Of a DNA stretch of 64,000 nucleotides, positions 17,501 through 63,805 are shown one piece after another. The notes under the pieces are model-generated. The model saw only the letters and a list, made by a program, of their open reading frames with translations. It made no database searches and was not told the DNA's origin. How positions within the stretch are numbered: the first letter of the stretch is position 1; the number at the start of each line of letters is the position of its first letter. Both the position numbers and the translations under genes were made by a program. Origin of the DNA: Cloeon dipterum (Eukaryota > Arthropoda > Insecta > Ephemeroptera > Baetidae); NCBI RefSeq assembly GCF_949628265.1, contig NC_088788.1, forward strand, positions 11,842,001 through 11,906,000, read 5' to 3'.

Positions 17501-17956
17501 AATTTCTTGCTCTCTCTATATATCAATATATAATACATTTTTAGCAATATTAGTTCCTTTCACAATGTAGTCAATTTATAATCTCGGTTTGTTCATCGAT
17601 AGAAAACATGAATGGCTTATGTAATGTATGTAAAAATGAGTTTCACCACGAGTTTGTCGTATTTATGTAGAAAAGACAGTACACAAGATGATAGACTGAA
17701 AAATAGTCCAAGAGTGTGTGAATTATTACATTATTAGAAGCAGCTGCGGCTAACGAGATTCGATTCAAATGACGTCACGCGCACTTTCACTCGTCAAGAA
17801 TGTTCACAGTAATTAAAGTCTTTCTGGACGCTGAAGGTCCAGATGCGGGGTGGTTTCGGGCCCTCACTGCAGGTCGGCTCCTGTGCACGGCAACAGGGGC
17901 CGCTCACTGCCCCATGGCGCTCGCCGGGGCTAAACAGCAGTGGGGGCCCTCGAATG
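14512..17956. other. Long AT-rich intergenic region
   Basis: No supported gene. Simple AT-rich sequence throughout, except a more balanced patch at about 16960-17110 that can fold into an imperfect hairpin (see findings). The left side is downstream of the hydrolase gene. The right side should hold the 3' UTR of the minus-strand tetraspanin. Confidence 0.6.
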
Positions 17957-20900
17957 TCAGTGCCACTTGGCCTTCTGGGCGAAGATGTCGGCACGCAAGT
18001 TCTGCGCGAAGCAGATGCCCAAGATCTGCAGAGACAGGAGAATTTAAAAATTGTATTTATTTAAAAACTATAAAAATCCTTTGGGGAAAGGCGATTTTTT
18101 ATAATAAGCAACAAGGATAATGCAAAGATTTGAATGGAAACCATTTGTAAAAATTATATTATATTTTTAATGTGACATCTTTCCTTTTAAACATCTAAAA
18201 AAACTATGCCACTATGTGAACTGGAATTATTAAATAATTCAATCGTAAAAATTATTCCCAGTTTTCAAATAATGAACTTAATTTGATTTTTAGACCATTA
18301 TAAAGTCTGTTTTGTGATTTTTTAAAACACTAATTAATTTTTAAGATGAGTTAGATGACTCTAATTTAATGTCAAAATTAAAATTTAAAAATAAAATTAT
18401 GATTTAACAGCCAGTGTGTAATTTGCTCCACTGCTATTCCATTTGACGCAATCGCAGAGCGTCGAGGCGGTACCTGAGAGAAGCAAGTGGTGGTGGCCAC
18501 CACAGCAACAGTGATCAGGTTTCGATCAAGCCAGTCCTCGGCCGCGTGCAGACAGCCGCGCTCGAATATGGCCGTCCCATCAAACTGGAGAGAAGAGAAA
18601 GGGGGCTTTAGTTACCTGCGTGATTGCGAGACCGACTGCCACGCCGCACACCACCACCAGGTTGGCCTCGAGCCACTCCTCACCCGTGCGCAGACACCCG
18701 CGCTCAAAAATGTGCCGCTCGGTCGACTGAGGAGCCGGACAAGAGGCACACGGAATCAAGGGTTAGTCTTTCACACCAAGCGATTGCCAATCAGGTGTTA
18801 GTGCAAATAAAATTTTGACAGCTGCTACCACTACGAAACCAGTTTGGCAAACTTTGAAAAAGCGCGAAGGCTACTCACATATCCTGGTTTCCGGACGTCA
18901 TAGCCGCACTGCTTATTTTTTATTATCTCCTGCAAACGGAAAATTTAGAGTTCAGTCTGATGGATGAATAATATTGAGTGCAACTCACATTCGGTTTTGG
19001 TTTGCAGCAAGAAAATGGCACACCACAGGCTTCTCTACTTCCGACTTCGCGGGACGAGCAATTAAAGTAGTTGTTTTTGTCCCAGTCCTTTGGCCCTTCA
19101 ATACCACAGCATTGCAACTTAAACAAAAAATGAAATAAAGTTAATTTGAAATACGTAAAAATTAACATTAAAGTCATATATTTATTTTGGATATATTACA
19201 ATTTTTAGAATAGTCTGTTTCTTGTATCTATTGGCATGTCAGTAAAGATACTCATAGGATTTGACGTTTTAGTTTTGGCGAAAGCACCTTTCCTGTTCAA
19301 TGGTGGACATTTTTTTCAACTCGATGAATTTTAACGTATTTTTTATTTCAAGAAAATTGTCCTAAATTTAAATTTTGATTTAAAAATACAATTTTTCCAC
19401 TGATAAATACACTGATAAATGAGACAAATCAATTTATGGGTAATTTTTGACGTTCCGAAAATATTAAAAATTTCCCATTAGGCCTAGTTCAGTGAGTTTT
19501 TAATTGCTTATCGCAGAGAAATGAACTAAACATGGTCAGAAAGCTGAAGAAAAATAATATTTCTTCCATGTTGACAAAATTTTCTTTCATAATTTTTACT
19601 TCCGAAAAGATTATGTAGAAAATGTGAAAATTATATGAATTAAAAATTTTCAGAATTTTTCTCCATGGTAAAAATGTACCTGCATGACCTGAGAGTCAGC
19701 TCAGAAATTCACAAAACAATATCTTGAACTGTTAATGGGACATAAAGCCAATTTCTTGACTAAATCTGTCAAATCATAGGATGCTTGTTATTTTAATATT
19801 ATCGAATTAAGACTACTCGTAGTTTTAAGTGAATAAACACATTACACAGCATTCTGGATCCTTGGCTGATAAATTTTAAAATTAAAATTACAAGCTCAAT
19901 TAAATTTGAAAAACCCTTACCCAATCCTCCTGGATCCAGTCGATGAGGTTCTGTTGGTCTGGGTCTTCTCTGTAGTGAACAATAAATGCCTGGAAGCCCC
20001 CAGTGGCCTGTGCCTTGATCTGCAATGAGTTAGCATTCAACACGACTGTCCTTTTGAAACAAAGCGACATCGAGATCGAGTCATCGGATAATCCCGACAA
20101 AAGCACTCACCCAGTCTTTGAAGATGAATCCTAGGATGCCGGCAGTCATCTCCAGCAGTAAAATTATGGCCAGGAATATGGCGTACTGTGTATAGGGAAA
20201 CATATAAAACGGTTCACATTTAATCGCGCGCGCAATCAATTGAAAACACTCACCGCTGCCAAGAGACACGAATTCTCCCTCAGGGCGCCAACACAACCCG
20301 TAAAGCCAATCACAAAGGTCATCAACCCTACGGACAAGCGTTACACGGCGTGACATTTCCGGTTCATTGTGGCGCGAAACGAGAGACACTCACCTACGAG
20401 GATGAGCAGGAATGCAGGGTCGAGGGCCACGTTGGCCAGTCTGCTGAGGTTGCTGAAGGTGTCTTTTTCGCTCCATGCCCAAAAGCCGATGGCCAAGACC
20501 AGCAGACCAATCAGCTGTCGAGAAAAAATTTAGTCAAAAATTTTGCGTGTGAGTGCGCGGCGGGCTAGGAGGGCAGGAAATGCTTTGTTTAACGTAAATT
20601 AAACACGCTCCCTCTCACACTCGGTCTGCCGAGGACGTAATTATTGCGGCGCGAGCCTCGAGTGTTTCAATGAAATGCACAAAGTCGGCGAGTGACAAGT
20701 GTTTGGAGCAGTTGGGGAGCAGGAGACACTCACGCCGACAAGAGGCCGCCGTGTTTGCGGCCCACGTGACATATGATATACTGCGCGACCTTTTTTTATT
20801 TGCACTGCAAGGATTAATGGAGAGCGGCCGACAATTCACCAACAGATGCGAAAACAAAGTGAGACGAGGCGCGTGAAGAGCTAATTTGGAAAGCATCACG

Positions 20901-22983
20901 CTCTCTGAGCAGTTTGCTTTGCACGTTTGCTCAGTGATAATTTGTCAGTTCCTCGTGATTTATTATTATTTGGCTATTAAAGTGATTTTATTGCTCAGGA
21001 AACTGTAGACCTTCTCTTTGAAAAGCGGAGATGGCTTTGAGAATTTAATTAAGAGGCAATGAAATAAATTAAACAAACAAACTTTCTGGTACGAAAATAT
21101 GAATTATTGATTTTAAGTAAGTAAATAGCTACAGAGGAACGATTGAATTTAATTTGAATTGCGGAAACAATTTGCAGATGATTGTACGGTTAGTTTGAAT
21201 AATTATTACATCATCAATGTGTAATAATCAAATTAGGACTGAGTTACAGCTAAATTTCAGTAATTTGACATGAATTTCACAGATAATATAAATCAACTGT
21301 TTGCCAATGATTTTTCGCTTGAATTCGATTCCTCTCGTCATGATCTATTAAACGGTGTGCGAATTATGGGCTAAATTTCCCTTCTGGCGATTTAATCTGG
21401 ATTTTCAGCCAGGAAGTGCTTACCGCTTGATTAGATGCAAACATTGGAGCCGATATTCTCAGAAATTCAAACGGCAACCTTTAAAGCTCTCTCCAACTCT
21501 TACAGAATATTAATTTAACGTAGTGGTAAAAATTATTTTCAGAATTTTTTAGTACTGAAGATCCAATTAAAGCTAATGAGATCACGTGGTGAAATAATAA
21601 TTGGAATATTCCATAGAAATTTAATACTAAGCTAATAAGAAGAATAAATCCACTGAGCAGAAATTTCATAGTGTCTCTTTTTCATTAATTTTTCAAGGGC
21701 AAAAAAATGCTTCTTTTCGATGATTTTCTCCAAACAAAACGAAGCCAAACAAACGAAAATCTCAAATCAAGTCAAAAAAGCCTTTTTCCAGGCGACTGCA
21801 CCCTTTTCAGCTTCAGAGAAATGGAAATTATTGTTAGCTCAGTGAGCAATATATGATCGTTTTCGACTCCCTTCACTCTGGTTTGGTCTCCGGTAACCCT
21901 GAGAGTGCTGTTAATAATTTTTCATCCGATCCGCAGCGTGGGAGTTGGAATATAAAGTCTTGTGCGAGAGAGGAGGCAGCCCGCAGCAAACCAAGCAGTA
22001 ACTGTATCCCGTTACTTTTCCCAATAAGGGCACTTGACTCACTCGCAAGCAATTACCCACATTCGCTCGGCTTCAGACTTCTCTCGTCGGCGCATATTAG
22101 CATAAAATTTTAGACAAAATCTCATTCATCGGCTTTCACTCGTTTCCTACGCGCACGCACAGCAAATGAATAATGAATAAGATAGAGAGAAAAAAAAGAA
22201 AATGTGGAATAACAACGAGGGAATGTGATCTCCATCCTCGGCGAGAAATTCGAGATAGAAGTCAAGGAAAGGAAAAATGAAGGTAGCAAACACTTGATCA
22301 CGAGACGGTTTTCACCTGAAATGCACAAAAGCGGTAAGGATCGAGCTCACGCTCCGTGGCGTTTGACTCAATTCACGCAATAAAACGTTTCAGTTTGTTA
22401 CGAAATAAAACAGTCGTTCAACCGTGAATCGCAAAAAATATCAGCACCTTTCGCCAAGATGCGAGCAGTGAAGAATGAAACTGTATCTCGAGTATACAGT
22501 AAGTTGTTGTTTAAAGCAAAAATAAATTTAATTTTTTAATTTTAAAATTTTACCTGTAAATTTTTCGTGAAGTTAATTTATTGAAAGTGAGAAATATTTT
22601 GATAAAACAATTTAACATTGACAAAATTAATTTTCTAGGAGGAAAATCAAAGGTAATAATGCAAGGCTTGCACAGAGCAAAGCTCTGCAGACGGATGTGT
22701 ATGGTATGGTGTGTCTGTTGTGCCATTGACCTTCGGCCCACCCCCTAGCAACAGCCCTCGCACCCCAACCCACCCTCGGGCAGTCCGAAGCCCCAGCGTG
22801 CCTCGGAGGCGACAAGGGCGTCCCTGGGAGGTGGGGGTAGCGGACCCCGCGGGGCTCGCGCTGCCCCGCGGACGGCAGGCGCTGGTCACTCACCCAGAAG
22901 ATGACGTTCGAGCCGAAAATGACGTATTTGAGGCAGCAGCTGACCTCGGTGTGGTCACGCCGGACCTTGCGGGTCACGGGCAT
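17957..22983 (-). CDS. TspanC8-class tetraspanin with mutually exclusive exons
   Basis: Minus-strand exons in order: 22983-22894, 20514-20394, 20327-20254, 20185-20111, 20019-19921, 19117-18989, 18929-18879, then either 18726-18616 or 18584-18474, then 18025-17957. All junctions are in phase and either isoform has 272 residues. Four membrane segments are visible (about 18-44, 62-84, 93-116, 233-257). The large loop carries CCG (156-158), NC, EAC, SCC, QCGY and ERGC, giving eight cysteines, the mark of TspanC8 proteins (vertebrate TSPAN5/14/17, fly Tsp26A/3A/86D). In known cases these bind ADAM10/Kuzbanian, control its exit and trafficking, and so affect Notch. The start was chosen at [13 protein letters not shown] by family fit; the frame stays open upstream. 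The 5' region is GC-rich and the first intron is about 2.4 kb. Confidence 0.9.
18474..18584 (-). other. Alternative exon A of the tetraspanin (LEL end and TM4)
   Basis: 111 nt, 37 codons, phase 0 at both ends, flanked by CTCCAG acceptor and GTACCG donor (minus strand). It encodes [18 protein letters not shown] then [19 protein letters not shown] (residues 214-250). It keeps the last large-loop cysteine (ERGC) and forms most of the fourth membrane segment. It is the twin of exon B. Confidence 0.85.
18616..18726 (-). other. Alternative exon B of the tetraspanin (LEL end and TM4)
   Basis: 111 nt, phase 0 at both ends, flanked by CTCCTCAG acceptor and GTAACT donor (minus strand). It encodes [18 protein letters not shown] then [19 protein letters not shown]. 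It aligns without gaps to exon A and sits 31 nt from it. Compared with A, the loop end and the membrane segment differ (more hydrophobic and Gly-containing here). Confidence 0.87.
19240..19480. repeat. Family A repeat, copy 2 (inverted, in tetraspanin intron)
   Basis: The arm GGATTTGACGTTTTAGTTTT at about 19258 matches the left arm of copy 1. The following 200 nt match the reverse complement of about 8540-8750 (for example GACGTTCCGAAAA at 19450 against TTTTCCGAAACGTC at 8550). The far end was not found, so it may be truncated. Confidence 0.5.
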
Positions 22984-23460
22984 GTCGAAGGGCCGAATCG
23001 CGATCAGCTGCCCGTCGACCAAACATCGGCCATCGTCCTGCTGGCTGTGTGCGCTGTGCTGCCGCCGCCGTCGCTGCTCGCTGGCTGCTGCTCGCTTGGT
23101 TCGCAACTGAATCGCTATTCGACTCGACCACTGCCTGCCAGCCTGCACTGCTGCCAACCTGACCTCGCCTCGCCGCCTGACTGCGCAGCCTCGCGCCCGT
23201 CTCCATCTCCGAGGGAGAAATGGGTTAATCGCGCGGCACGTGCAAGCAGAGAGGGTGCACCCCCCGTGATTTGGACCAACGCCGACGCGGATCGACGAAG
23301 CCGATTTCGCTGTTTGCCTCGTTTTCGATATGCAGGCTGCAACCCGCGAGTCGGACGTGACGAGCGAGTTGCATATTGTACCCAGGGCTGCTGCTGTTAT
23401 TGCCGCCGCCGTGGCTGCCACTGCTTGCGTTGCATAATACCGCGTATAACACGTACACAT
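22984..23460 (-). promoter_or_regulatory. GC-rich 5' region of the tetraspanin gene
   Basis: GC-rich, Ala/Arg-codon-like stretch directly upstream of the tetraspanin start, open in several frames because of composition. Best read as 5' UTR and promoter. The reading frame continuous with the CDS has no family support upstream of 22983. No TATA box stands out. Confidence 0.45.
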
Positions 23461-57832: not shown

Positions 57833-59790
57833 ATTAAAAAATAAAAATCTAAATCTTTCATTACAGAAATTCAATTAAATTCGACAGGCAAAGATACAGA
57901 TTAAAATTTGAAGAGAATTGGAACCATGGATTGAAAAGTTTGAATTGAAATATTTATAACCGATCTTTATCTTTTTTCGCGTTGGATTAAACAATGAAAA
58001 GTGAAACCCCTCTAAAATAGCTTGCTGAACTCTTTTTACCGTCTGAGTGCATGAATCAGTCAGGCAAATTCCTACATAGTTTTCTACGATATTTGTTTAG
58101 TTTTGTAAGTATATAAAAAGAGATGCTCGTGAGATCTGAACATCTGAAGGGCTGAAACTTTGCTGCTGTCGAGTATTATAGAATCACAAAAATGAAAAAG
58201 ATATTTTCAAATTCTTGTTTATTTAGAAATGTTCGCGATATGCAAGGAAATATTTTCTGCCTGGAAACTGGCCTTTTTCCTGAAACGCAATTTGCTCGCA
58301 CTTGGCAACAGCGTCAAAGGGGAATGAAACTCCATAAACTTTTGCTCGATGACAGCAGCGACGGTACAGCTCGATTACTTTTCCTCGTACTCCTTTCACT
58401 CCACTTTAAAACAGCAAAGCGAAAAAAAAAAGGAAAAATTGCATCCGATCGTAGAGAGTTGATTATCAGCGCCGGGCTGTGCACATTTGCTGCCTCTCTT
58501 GCTGGTTGGCGCGCGGCCTTGCTCTTTTTGCGCGCGCCCTTGATCGCGAACAGCAGGGGCAGATGGCTCCACGGGCAGAGCGCTCGCTTTCCCGGGCGCT
58601 TTCCCTCTTTGCACTTTCCCGTGTCGGGTCGGGCCGCCAGTGACAGCGCGTTTCCCAGCAGCAACATCAGGACTCCATTGCGGCGGGCAGCGCGGGCCCG
58701 ACTTGCTCATTGTTGCTCTCACTCGTCTCGACCGATCAAGCATGTTGCATCGGACTGCGTGAGCCGCAGGATTCGACTTAAGGTGAGACACAGATTGGGG
58801 CTGCAGCCTCGCTGGCCGGGAAACGAGTTTTATCGACGGATCTCGCGCTGGAGCTGAGCAAACAAACGTAAATTATGCACAGCCTCTTTTCGCCCCCGTC
58901 TGGAAACGCCCTTTTGTGTTGGCAAAATCGGGATTTCAGGTAATTTCAAATCGTTGATGCCTACCCTACTGGAGTTTCAGTCAAAAGTAATTAAATTATA
59001 AAATAAAAATAAAAATTTTAAATTAAAGTGGAAATTTCAGCGTTTAAGATTAAAAAAGGGGTGCTTTTAACTTTTATTATCGTGTTTACTTTAGGTGCGT
59101 AAAACATTTTGCCGAGCGTAATTGTAATTTACACTTTTTAATCAACGCGATGAGGCATTAACGCGCATTTTGCTTTTAAGTGCGGCAAGGCGCGTGCTCG
59201 CTTATTCTCCTTTTTTTTAAGAGCCATTGAGCCTCATTAGAGTGAGAGCGTGGGTGTATTCCAGCCTGCGACGAACGCGTGTTTTCGACGGGAGGACCCT
59301 TTTCTGCGTCGCGAAATCCACAACTGAAACGCATTTGAGATGAAAATCTGGCGCCTGTGCCGACGTGTGGATGCTGAGCGTCTGTTGCAGACGAAAATCA
59401 ATAATTCAAGGCAGAGCGGGGCAGAGCTCTGCCCCTTCTGTACACCGCGCGCGCGACTCAGAGGAGAGAACAACCTTCCATACATTAACCCGACAACGAG
59501 ACAGAGCAGACACGAGAGCATTTTGCTCTCTTTGTAGTCGCGAGGGAGACGAGAATGCATAGACGCCAATAAGTCGAGTTTTCCCTTGCCGATGCAAAGT
59601 CGCCGTTTGTTTCGACCGTAAAACATACACGGAGGCAGGTGCGCGAATCTGTAGAAAATTGGTCCAGTTCAAAAATCTCGAGGGGTGCTATTTTGCATTT
59701 TTGGAATGCGTTCAATAGTGTGTTGGGCCTCATTTGAATCGTGCTCCCCTTTTTTCCAGCTAAAGCTCAGCAGGCATTCAGGAAGCGAAA
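57833..59790. other. Intergenic DNA and probable 5' UTR exon of tetraspanin 2
   Basis: A GC-richer block at about 58480-58850 ends in a strong donor, AAG/GTGAGA at 58782/58783. An acceptor TTTTTTCCAG lies at about 59759, 31 nt before the ATG at 59791. I read this as a non-coding first exon spliced to the start-codon exon. A long frame at 58192-58857 has no family support and is matched by open antisense frames, so it is compositional. Confidence 0.45.
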
Positions 59791-62700
59791 ATGGCGATCG
59801 TTTGTGACAACACGAACAAATGTGCCAAAGCAGGGCTCATTTTCTTCAACCTCATCTTTTGGGTAAGTTCCAAAAGCGTGCTTGTATCGTAAAATATAGT
59901 GACTTTCCGCCCCGGCGTCGGTCATTATTCATTACGACCGCGCGGCAAGCCACTCTCTGCAGTGGCTTGCCTCAGCCTCTTTTGTTCCACGAAATAACTT
60001 GATGGCAGCAGGAAAAAATTTGGGCCCATATGTTACTTTCACTTGCAAACTGTTTTCCTCCTTTCTTTTAAAAGCGGCGCATTTTCAGATTGCCTGAAAT
60101 AAAATATCTCAATTTGTGAGAGAGAGGAAAAGGTTTATATATATTTCCATTAAGTGAGGTACTTAAATTGAGCAGCAGAGCTTTCCTGCAAAAAATTAAC
60201 ACTGTATATGCAGCAATGTACAACGTCAGTCACGAAGAGCGATTAAAATGCACTTTTCTGCAGAGTGTGATTAAAAAAAAGTGACGGATTTTATGAATGT
60301 CGTCCTTCCCGACAAGAAAACACTTTCTTACAAAATTGAAAAGCTTTTTGAGTTCAATTTACTTGCAAAAGATATAATGAGAGAAAAGTTTTGCTGCTTG
60401 CATTGCAAAATTAATTGGAAGAAAATGTTCTACAAGCTGTCGAGAAAATGAATTCCCTTTGGATTCAAAGTTAAAAATGCAAAAAAGACTAGCAAACTGC
60501 GAAAACGCAGGACATTTAATATTGAAAAAAATAAGGAATAGCTGGCCAGTGCTCTTCAAAATTTATTTATCCTATTCTTAGTCAACAGCGCAGAGTGAAA
60601 CAATAATTTATTTTTCATTTTTAATGTAAAAAATCTTTGTTATATTTTTGTTATTAAAATATTTCATTGAAGAGGGTTTGCAGTAGGTAGTCATTTTAAA
60701 ATCAATAGAATTAAATTTCCCCCAGCCTGTGTTTTTATCCTTTTTTCTTTTCTTTTTAAGTATTGGGTTATGTTAAGTTTTTAGGAGACGTAATATGTTC
60801 AAAAGATTTTGTCAGATTTGCTGTATTTATTTGCTCAGCATTGAGTTCTGTCAATTTTATCTGATGGCTGGTAGTTTTAGAATCCTTTGTAAATTAAAAT
60901 TAATTTTATGGATTTTGTTTTGCATGTATAGTTCATAAAAATAATAAATTGTTTCTCTTCATTTATATCACTTTTTCATTCAGCACCAAGGTGTAGAGCC
61001 ATTTAGAATATTTCCTTTTAAAGAAAATCCTTTCCTTCGTACTTGATTCCAGGCGTCAGGTGCCGCCCTTATCCTCCTGGGAGCATCGATGTTGCTGGAC
61101 CAGGGCCAGGCAGTGTTGCTTACGGCCGTGGCCTCACCGGGAATGCCGCCGCTGCTGCTGGTGGCCTTCGGGCTGGTCGGCCTGGGCAGCGTGGTACTCG
61201 TGGTCGGCATCCTTGGCTGCTTCGCCGGCCTCGTCGAGCAGCTGAACAAATGCCTGCTCGGCACTTACTTCACCTTCCTGTTCCTCGTGTTCGCGGCCGA
61301 AGTGTCCCTGGTGGTGGCAACTCTCCTGTTCCGCGAGCAGACCATCTCCGGCCTCGAGTCCCGTCTGCGCGACCGTCTGCACAACCAGTTCAACCGCACT
61401 GGACACGAACACTTCTCGGACGCTTATAACTTTGCACAGTACAAGGTACGCACACTAAAATTATCTTTCCAGAGCAGGCCAAAAATAAAAATAAAATAGT
61501 TTTTTTTGCTAAATATTTTTGCAAGATATTATGTGTTCGTCTGATTTTGGTTTCCGTGGTATAACTATTTTGAGCTTTTTTCAATTTGAAATTAAATTTG
61601 AGGGAGATTTAAGGAGAGAGGTGCTTTCAGATCCTTCAGTATGTACTACATTCAAAGAATTATTTTTCCAAAAGTTAGAATAATTTTTGAGGTAATATTT
61701 TGAAATCAGCAATGCCATGTTTGCGCAAGAAAGTGATAATAATTGACCAGATGAAAGGCCTGAATTGATAAGAAATACAAACCTGGGCACATATTTTTTT
61801 CTTTTATTTGCTGACGGTGCTGTTTCAGCATTAATAATTCTCCGCTTGAGGGTTTTAAAAGTAATGGCCCACTGGCTTGCCAAAAAATAAACACTTTTAC
61901 GAAGAGCACGAACAAGGACGTCTCTTAGATGGTGTCGTTTTAGGATTGAATAGCCCAGAAAACGTTAGGAATTTTCCTCATTTCGTGGTTTCGACGCCTG
62001 AAAGTTTTACAGGCAACGTGCTTGGCAAGGCTGTGCACCCGGTTGCATAAGTATCCCATAAAAATGTCGTACAAACTTTTTATGGCGACCCGTAATTTCA
62101 ATAAACACCGTTCAGATTCCACGTTCTTACACCAAATTGCTGAGGAGCATACTTTGAAATTTTAAACTGTTAGCTTCACGCTTCATAAACTTAAAACCTA
62201 TTATTTTTGTTTCGGTTTTACGATTTCATTATATTTTTTTAGCATTTGATCATAAGCGGCATTTATGGACTAACAAAAAGAGCGAAATCATTACAATATA
62301 CTAAAGCATATGACGCAAACAAAAAATGTGCACAAAAATCTACAATTTCCTTAAAAATCACTAATATTTCTCTGCAACTGTCAATATTTTCGTCAGGAAA
62401 AATTAGAAATTTTTTAATTGAATATCTTTTACCTTTAGCATTGAATTTATTGTTCTCACAATCAAAAAATGGTAATTTATGTCAAAAGTACAGGAAAGAA
62501 ATAAATTAACAATTTCCCATGTTTGCCAAATTTTCGTCCCAAAAGAAAATTTAAATGCACCAAAAATAAAACTATATCGCCCTTTTTATCTCAGAGAAAG
62601 CTTATTTTAGCGGGAAACCCGACTAATTTAGTCTAAAACATTGTCTAAAAACTATCCTTTTGATGCGTTTTACTTTGCCAAAAGTAAATAAATTTGATAA

Positions 62701-63805
62701 AGTCAAATCTAAGAAATTTATAAAAAAATCGATCTCAACAAACGGCGCATTTTTTCTCGCAGTTCGAGTGCTGCGGCGCGACCAAGGTGCAGGACTATGA
62801 GCTGTGGGCCAAGATGCAGCAGCCAGACAACGGACAGAACGGACCCCGCGTGCCAATCACGTGCTGCATGGTGCAGAAGACGACCACGCCGGACGCTAGC
62901 ATGCACGGAATGCTGATGGGCATCGACATCGACGAGTGGCGCACCGCGCGGCCCGTCAGGAGCGACCTGTGCCAGAGCCAGGGAGTTAGCGAGGCACGCC
63001 ACGAGCGAGGATGTCTGCAGCCGCTCGAGGACTGGTTCAAGGACAAGAGCCTGCTCGTGCTGGCCGTCGGACTGGCAGCCAGCCTCCTTCAGGTGAGACC
63101 TGATTTTTTTATTTGTTAGAAACAAAACGTTCATCTACTCGAGGTTGATTGCGTTCTTTATAGGAAAAAGAATTCGTAACACCAAAATGCTATATTTCAA
63201 CCCCTTAAAAACTGCTGGAATTTTGTATTCTATTTAAATTAATATTGTTTTAATTTTGAAATAATTTGGGGTGTTAATTTTAGCCTGAACGTTTGGATAA
63301 TTTAAATTATTTTTAAGCCTTGACGAGGAAGCATGCTTTTTAAGACATTTATTTTATATTTTAAATGTTTAAGGGGTTGGGGTAAGCACCCCTAAATGAT
63401 TCAGCTGATCAGGGGAGATTGAGATGAGTCTAACGGTATGCAGTTTTAGCAATTCTGGTGATTAGAACCCGAGATTTGGAGTTGACACTATTTTCTAATC
63501 ACAGAAGAGTTGAAAAATTCGTGATTTTTTAGAGTTTCGAAGCGTGTCGTTTCTCGAAAATGAAAAATAACACCACTCTGAAATTTTCACACAAGGTTCA
63601 AGTCATTTTACTTCACGGAATACGGTGCACTAAATACGCCGGAACTGCTTGAGTTAATTAAAAATATCTGAAATCAACAAGAGATGTTTTTCATTTTCCA
63701 GTCATGATTAAATTTTTATATTTTTTCTTAACGCGTGATACGCACGTGTTTCAGATCCTGGGCATGGCTTACACAGCGTGTCTCTGCAAGGTGGCAGGAA
63801 AGTAA
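59791..63805 (+). CDS. Tetraspanin with six-cysteine large loop
   Basis: Exons 59791-59862, 61053-61445, 62763-63092 and 63755-63805 join in phase 0 into 281 residues. Four membrane segments: about 14-36, 55-80 (PPLLLVAFGLVGLGSVVLVV), 94-116 (YFTFLFLVFAAEVSLVV) and 247-275. Between the second and third is GCFAGLVEQLNKCLLGTY, the usual small inner loop. The large loop has CCG (158-160), TCC, DLC and RGC, six cysteines in all, so it is not of the TspanC8 class and not closely related to the tetraspanin at 18-23 kb. The loop is long and Met/Gln-rich. Tetraspanins organise membrane partner proteins; the partner is unknown. The coding exons are much GC-richer than the introns. Confidence 0.88.

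Follow-up and report, generated by a model that had tools for sequence, protein, structure and literature searches.

A tandemly duplicated exon pair, probably mutually exclusive through steric hindrance, in a TspanC8 tetraspanin gene of the mayfly Cloeon dipterum

Alpha-tropomyosin carries mutually exclusive exons of the steric kind, i.e. two homologous exons of which the downstream one has its branch point too near the donor of the upstream one for both to be used. Exons 4a and 4b of OGDH are a further case (excerpts of PMC7969005 and PMC6692369). The least distance from donor to branch site is given as approximately 50 nt, and an adenovirus E1A pre-mRNA with a distance of 35 nt no longer supported assembly (excerpt of PMC6692369); a distance below 50 nt also served as the criterion by which 57 human clusters (9%) were assigned to steric interference (excerpt of PMC5740500). 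In OGDH, birds and mammals have 118-131 nt of intron between the two exons, and the branch points are distant ones that in human lie 25-41 nt downstream of the donor (excerpt of PMC7969005). Here we describe a pair of the same general design in C. dipterum for which, unlike OGDH, the whole spacer is 31 nt long, with candidate branch sites that overlap the very donor. It lies in a window of 64,000 nucleotides (the whole stretch of DNA that was analyzed), within a gene encoding a tetraspanin of the TspanC8 type.

TspanC8 proteins act as escorts of ADAM10 (Kuzbanian), an enzyme that cleaves Notch. The TspanC8 members of Drosophila include Tsp3A, Tsp26A, and Tsp86D. The TSPAN15-like group (TSPAN5, 10, 14, 15, 17, and 33) is characterized by the loop pattern CC-C-C-CC-C-C and by phase-0 introns 1, 2, 3, 4, 4b, 4c, and 6 (excerpt of PMC2650405). 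Production of two isoforms from one TspanC8 gene has been described for TSP-14A and TSP-14B of Caenorhabditis elegans, which have different localization and function; these two, however, differ by their 5' ends, with 24 extra N-terminal residues, and not by the substitution of a helix-4 exon (excerpt of PMC8827444). Human tetraspanins, including TSPAN14 and TSPAN5, are also alternatively spliced, but there exons are omitted (excerpts of PMC6773723 and PMC2650405), and the term "mutually exclusive" is absent from the main text of PMC6773723.

We rebuilt a complete gene model on the minus strand, from the start codon at 22983 to the stop codon at 17957, with nine exon places, the eighth of which is present in two versions termed 8B and 8A (Table 1). 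The introns comprise seven of phase 0 and one of phase 1, and either isoform is a tetraspanin of 272 amino acids. Against the Pfam Tetraspanin profile (PF00335, cut-off 32.1), the isoform with 8B scores 178.7 bits and the isoform with 8A 174.1 bits, covering profile positions 1-221 of 225, and the best solved relative of both is Tetraspanin-15 (8esv; 149.4 bits with 8B and 138 bits with 8A). When read by eye, the large loop of both isoforms contains eight cysteines in the arrangement CC-C-C-CC-C-C, the eighth being contributed by 8A or 8B. The N-terminus matches a segment of human TSPAN5 at 15 of 18 residues. Upstream of the start codon, another ATG opens a 9-codon frame (window 23004-23033, minus strand), in a different reading frame, whose stop lies 20 nt before the tetraspanin start.

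By our reading, the phase-0 introns sit at the numbered places of the TSPAN15-like group as listed in PMC2650405. The gene is, by its structure, classed as a TspanC8, in agreement with the identity proposed by the sequence-only reading: the eight-cysteine loop, the intron set, and Tetraspanin-15 as the best relative in the PDB are all as in the TSPAN15-like group, from which this gene differs by the duplicated exon between introns 4c and 6 and by an extra phase-1 intron after exon 2.

Table 1 Window positions of the exons of the TspanC8 gene and of the spacer between exons 8B and 8A.
Feature	Position	Strand	Basis
Exon 1, with the start codon and the first membrane helix	22894..22983	-	N-terminal translation
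Exon 2	20394..20514	-	frame and GT-AG sites
Exon 3, after the only phase-1 intron	20254..20327	-	gene model
Exon 4	20111..20185	-	gene model
Exon 5, large loop begins	19921..20019	-	gene model
Exon 6, with loop cysteines 1-6 in the motifs CCG and CGVPFSCC	18989..19117	-	gene model
Exon 7, loop cysteine 7	18879..18929	-	gene model
Exon 8B (5' alternative), with loop cysteine 8 and the greater part of membrane helix 4	18616..18726	-	gene model, profile and structure matches
Spacer of 31 nt (GTAACTAAAGCCCCCTTTCTCTTCTCTCCAG) with the donor of B and the polypyrimidine tract and acceptor of A	18585..18615	-	sequence
Exon 8A (3' alternative)	18474..18584	-	gene model, profile and structure matches
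Exon 9, remainder of helix 4, C-terminal tail, stop	17957..18025	-	gene model

In the transcript, exon 8B comes first and exon 8A second. Both are 111 nt long, begin and end in phase 0, and possess their own splice sites (acceptor CTCCTCAG/T and donor CAG/GTAACT for 8B; acceptor CTCTCCAG/T and donor CAG/GTACCG for 8A), and the spacer between them was counted as exactly 31 nt. The locus holds a tandem pair of homologous exons that agree in length and phase and have an acceptor and a donor each, and the coordinates, lengths, phases, and spacing that had been claimed for the pair were all correct, as was its description as gap-free alternative versions of the loop end and the fourth membrane helix. 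The two 37-residue versions align without gaps and share 16 of 37 amino acids and 62 of 111 nucleotides, with 23, 22, and 17 of 37 identities at the first, second, and third codon positions, respectively. Their BLOSUM62 sum is 79, whereas shuffling A 20,000 times gives -34 ± 13. The copies differ at 44% of their nucleotides, which rules out one exon having been assembled twice, and a tblastn search of positions 17900-23000 with A, B, and the exon of a paralogue (see below) yielded no third copy, the next best match having 15.8 bits and an E value of 0.41.

The Nei-Gojobori method gave pN of 0.38, pS of 0.61, dN of 0.54, and dS of 1.27 (1.21 by Biopython) for the two exons. As a neutral control, the same base changes were placed at random in 20,000 trials: at least 16 residues were kept in 0.9% of the trials (mean 10.8), such that the likeness of the proteins exceeds the control at the level of ~1% only, for a short exon (37 codons) with low power. 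The same control left 38% of the trials free of stops, so the open frame by itself says little. Because dN is 0.54 against a dS of 1.2-1.3, with amino-acid changes lagging silent ones, the sequences point to an old duplication under protein constraint. The exon ends would correspond to two ancient phase-0 introns, making a tandem duplication frame-neutral.

Both 8A and 8B keep the eighth loop cysteine as well as a Gln at the exon end. Either version supplies cysteine 8, so the switch would leave the cysteine frame unchanged, as had been proposed. The exon-end Gln aligns with a Glu of CD53 and would correspond to Glu/Gln209 of CD9; no other position of helix 4 is described as highly conserved (excerpt of PMC1190194). 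The differences between 8A and 8B consist of five loop-end residues, a 10-residue stretch, and the helix. At the positions 9 and 5 residues before the Gln, B possesses two Gly residues (GxxxG), as do Tetraspanin-15 and -7, whereas A possesses Val and Thr (VxxxT) and has lost the GxxxG-like motif. The motif is not obligatory in helix 4, e.g. CD53 lacks it. Small residues occupy both places in 8 of the 12 helix-4 matches from the genome that span the two positions, A being among the other 4, in a set that includes A and B as well as some weak matches and that was retrieved with a profile for which A, B, and the paralogue had formed part of the training set. Exon A is also farther than B from the tetraspanin family profile. 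Helix 4 has a mean hydropathy of 1.68 in A and 2.18 in B; Tetraspanin-15 and -7 have 1.77 and the paralogue 1.55, so each version can serve as a membrane helix.

The splice sites of the two exons are of unequal strength. Exon 8A has the poorer donor and 8B the better one, and the 17 positions before the acceptor contain 17 pyrimidines for 8A, the highest value in the gene, and 14 for 8B. At position +5, the seven constitutive donors (E1-E7) carry G and both alternative donors carry C, which could suggest regulation; nevertheless, weak donors do not prove regulation, because the donor of the single exon 8 of the paralogue is weak as well (GTAATT). No U12-type site was found in the pair, as neither donor (GTAACT or GTACCG) displays the U12 donor consensus as commonly given and the acceptor pyrimidine tracts are long.

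These data bear on the alternative of a relic exon, in which one of the copies, A more probably than B, would seldom or never be spliced in. Exon A scores below B against both Pfam and Tetraspanin-15 (values given above), its helix does not follow the pattern of the family, and its donor deviates from the usual consensus at +4, +5, and +6. Yet A is fully open at a dS of ~1.2-1.3, it preserves the W/N/L framework along with the loop cysteine and the helix Gln, its acceptor is preceded by an uninterrupted pyrimidine tract, and its helix hydropathy is near that of Tetraspanin-15 and -7. A dead copy at such divergence would be expected to contain stops or frameshifts, but the stop-free share of the neutral control, which modeled base changes only, tempers this argument. 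Overall, we consider a relic exon improbable.

We scanned the 60 nt before the acceptor of A for branch sites (NTNAN, scored for yTnAy) and obtained three candidates, GTAAC at -28, CTAAA at -24, and ATCAC at -37. The first two lie inside or directly over the donor of B (GTAACTAAAG) and the third in the last codons of B, all three being at most 10 nt from that donor. Joining B to A would require the 31-nt spacer to be removed as an intron. The shortest constitutive introns of this gene measure 59, 66, and 68 nt, and two introns of the paralogue, read by eye, measure ~59 and ~63 nt. The distance from the donor of B to a candidate branch site of A is below the ~50 nt associated with steric interference, a limit that derives from mammalian work, and splicing of B to A should fail because the candidate sites fall far below this minimum.

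We propose the following mechanism. The exon between the ancestral tetraspanin introns 4c and 6 would have been duplicated in tandem. With the branch site of A in or beside the donor of B, U1/U6 at B and U2 at A could not act together; B would be joined to exon 9, or exon 7 would be joined to A, but B would never be joined to A. If the spacer were left in, a stop after 11 codons would remove the faulty double inclusion. The loop cysteines, the intron set, the closeness to Tetraspanin-15, and the donor/branch-site geometry favor the prediction of mutually exclusive exons in a TspanC8 gene made by the sequence-only reading, and the pair is probably a real one of the steric type. We assign a probability of about 0.82 to the reading that the 4c-6 exon of a TspanC8 gene was duplicated in tandem and that the copies are alternative, mutually exclusive exons of the steric kind.

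The earlier claim that geometry blocks the inclusion of A plus B holds for the B-to-A splice, but not for a fused exon of 253 nt, which is physically possible and is halted instead by a frameshift and a stop. Because 31 is not a multiple of three, retention of the spacer breaks the frame: 11 codons are added after helix 4, followed by a stop that lies just over 100 nt upstream of the 18474 junction. The resulting third product is possible; it would be truncated and probably unstable. One could also imagine this fused exon as the regulated output, either as a stop-containing form that lowers the tetraspanin level or as a protein with a short alternative tail, given that the acceptor of B and the donor of A could define one exon and that the frame stops where it does. 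No positive evidence for such an output was found, and the strong internal acceptor and usable internal donor would compete with it, making this reading quite improbable. When both exons are skipped, the frame is kept but cysteine 8 and most of helix 4 are lost.

Exclusivity could alternatively arise through competing RNA structures of the Dscam type, described for Dscam, Mhc, and 14-3-3zeta (excerpt of PMC3923563), instead of steric crowding. The 253-nt unit formed by B, the spacer, and A folds no better than shuffles (z of 0.01). Nine inverted repeats were detected in 17957-18929, all of them at 18044-18407 in the A/T-rich intron after A, leaving the spacer and the upstream intron untouched. 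Folding and inverted repeats thus revealed no paired selector/docking sequences around the exons, in what is a weak test on a single species. The 31-nt spacer moreover makes a competing structure unneeded, and we regard this explanation as highly improbable compared with steric exclusion.

We searched the genome (190 Mb in 10 contigs, five of them of 33-43 Mb) for other tetraspanins, the counts of Pfam matches being lower bounds. A second TspanC8-like gene, the paralogue mentioned above (L013), lies 11.5 Mb away on the minus strand of the same contig (G000:C3, ~338990-336190) and has one exon 8 only (KIYTTGCVEEVRVWLERNLYTIASVALGVALAQ). A retrocopy of a spliced form was rejected, as the seven genome matches belong to this gene (five) and to the paralogue (two). 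We examined 23 tetraspanin stretches, i.e. 20 from the genome, L013, and two of the window, leaving out six places with weaker Pfam matches. They contained no other close pair of helix-4 exons (matches above 12 bits within 200 nt), in a search where 15 of the 23 stretches had no match above 12 bits and where the profile was biased and insensitive, since A, B, and the paralogue were among the six sequences behind it. Two further candidates for a second pair were discarded: the matches of L014 (12.7 and 8.3 bits) are 1.7 kb apart and fit two neighboring genes with separate Pfam matches, and those of L028 (7.6 and 4.8 bits) are 3 kb apart.

The window holds another tetraspanin gene on the plus strand (~59764-63116), with exon matches at 61047-61454 and 62700-63092 and an N-terminus near 59821; its loop reads CCGATKV...CC and it has one helix-4 exon, starting ERGCLQPLEDWFKD. 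Elsewhere in the genome, tetraspanin matches cluster at G000:C1:35.71-35.73 Mb and at C1:1.91-1.92 Mb in a manner suggestive of tandem gene arrays.

Among the literature matches listed, judged by titles and abstract openings, none describes a mutually exclusive pair in a tetraspanin, and tetraspanins are not mentioned in the main text of PMC3303723, PMC9741552, PMC5740500, or PMC3923563. In the brains of flies devoid of eMIC activity, Tsp26A is one of the genes named as alternatively spliced (excerpt of PMC8797185), and for this reason the pair or its counterpart may already be annotated in insects. Steric mutually exclusive exons are a known kind, for which the tetraspanin family would be a new setting among the matches listed. 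We infer the function of the pair, and its mechanism is stated more sharply here than in the sequence-only reading.

Less certainly than the splicing itself, exon choice would alter the membrane-proximal loop end and helix 4, and with them packing, the lipid pocket, or partner handling, leaving the eight-cysteine fold undisturbed. The switch may plausibly affect the handling of ADAM10/Kuzbanian. The loop of Tspan14 is necessary and sufficient for ADAM10 binding, with lower efficiency in a CD9 frame (excerpt of PMC4751363), and this sufficiency disfavors a leading role for helix 4. On the other hand, Tspan15 given the main extracellular region of Tspan5 did not thereby gain Notch activation (excerpt of the review PMC8268256), and parts outside the loop may count for that reason. 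The most far-reaching reading is that one TspanC8 gene provides two ADAM10/Kuzbanian escorts of the same cysteine fold but with different fourth helices, the GxxxG face being present or absent, through a minimal steric switch with a donor and a branch site placed in the same ten bases, and that the choice between them by tissue tunes Notch shedding; we regard it as speculative and rather unlikely.

How a TspanC8 steers ADAM10 to one substrate is an open question in the field. A natural pair of isoforms that differ only in helix 4 and at the loop end would offer a ready-made way to test the parts outside the loop, and the 31-nt spacer would represent a very compact case of steric exon exclusion.
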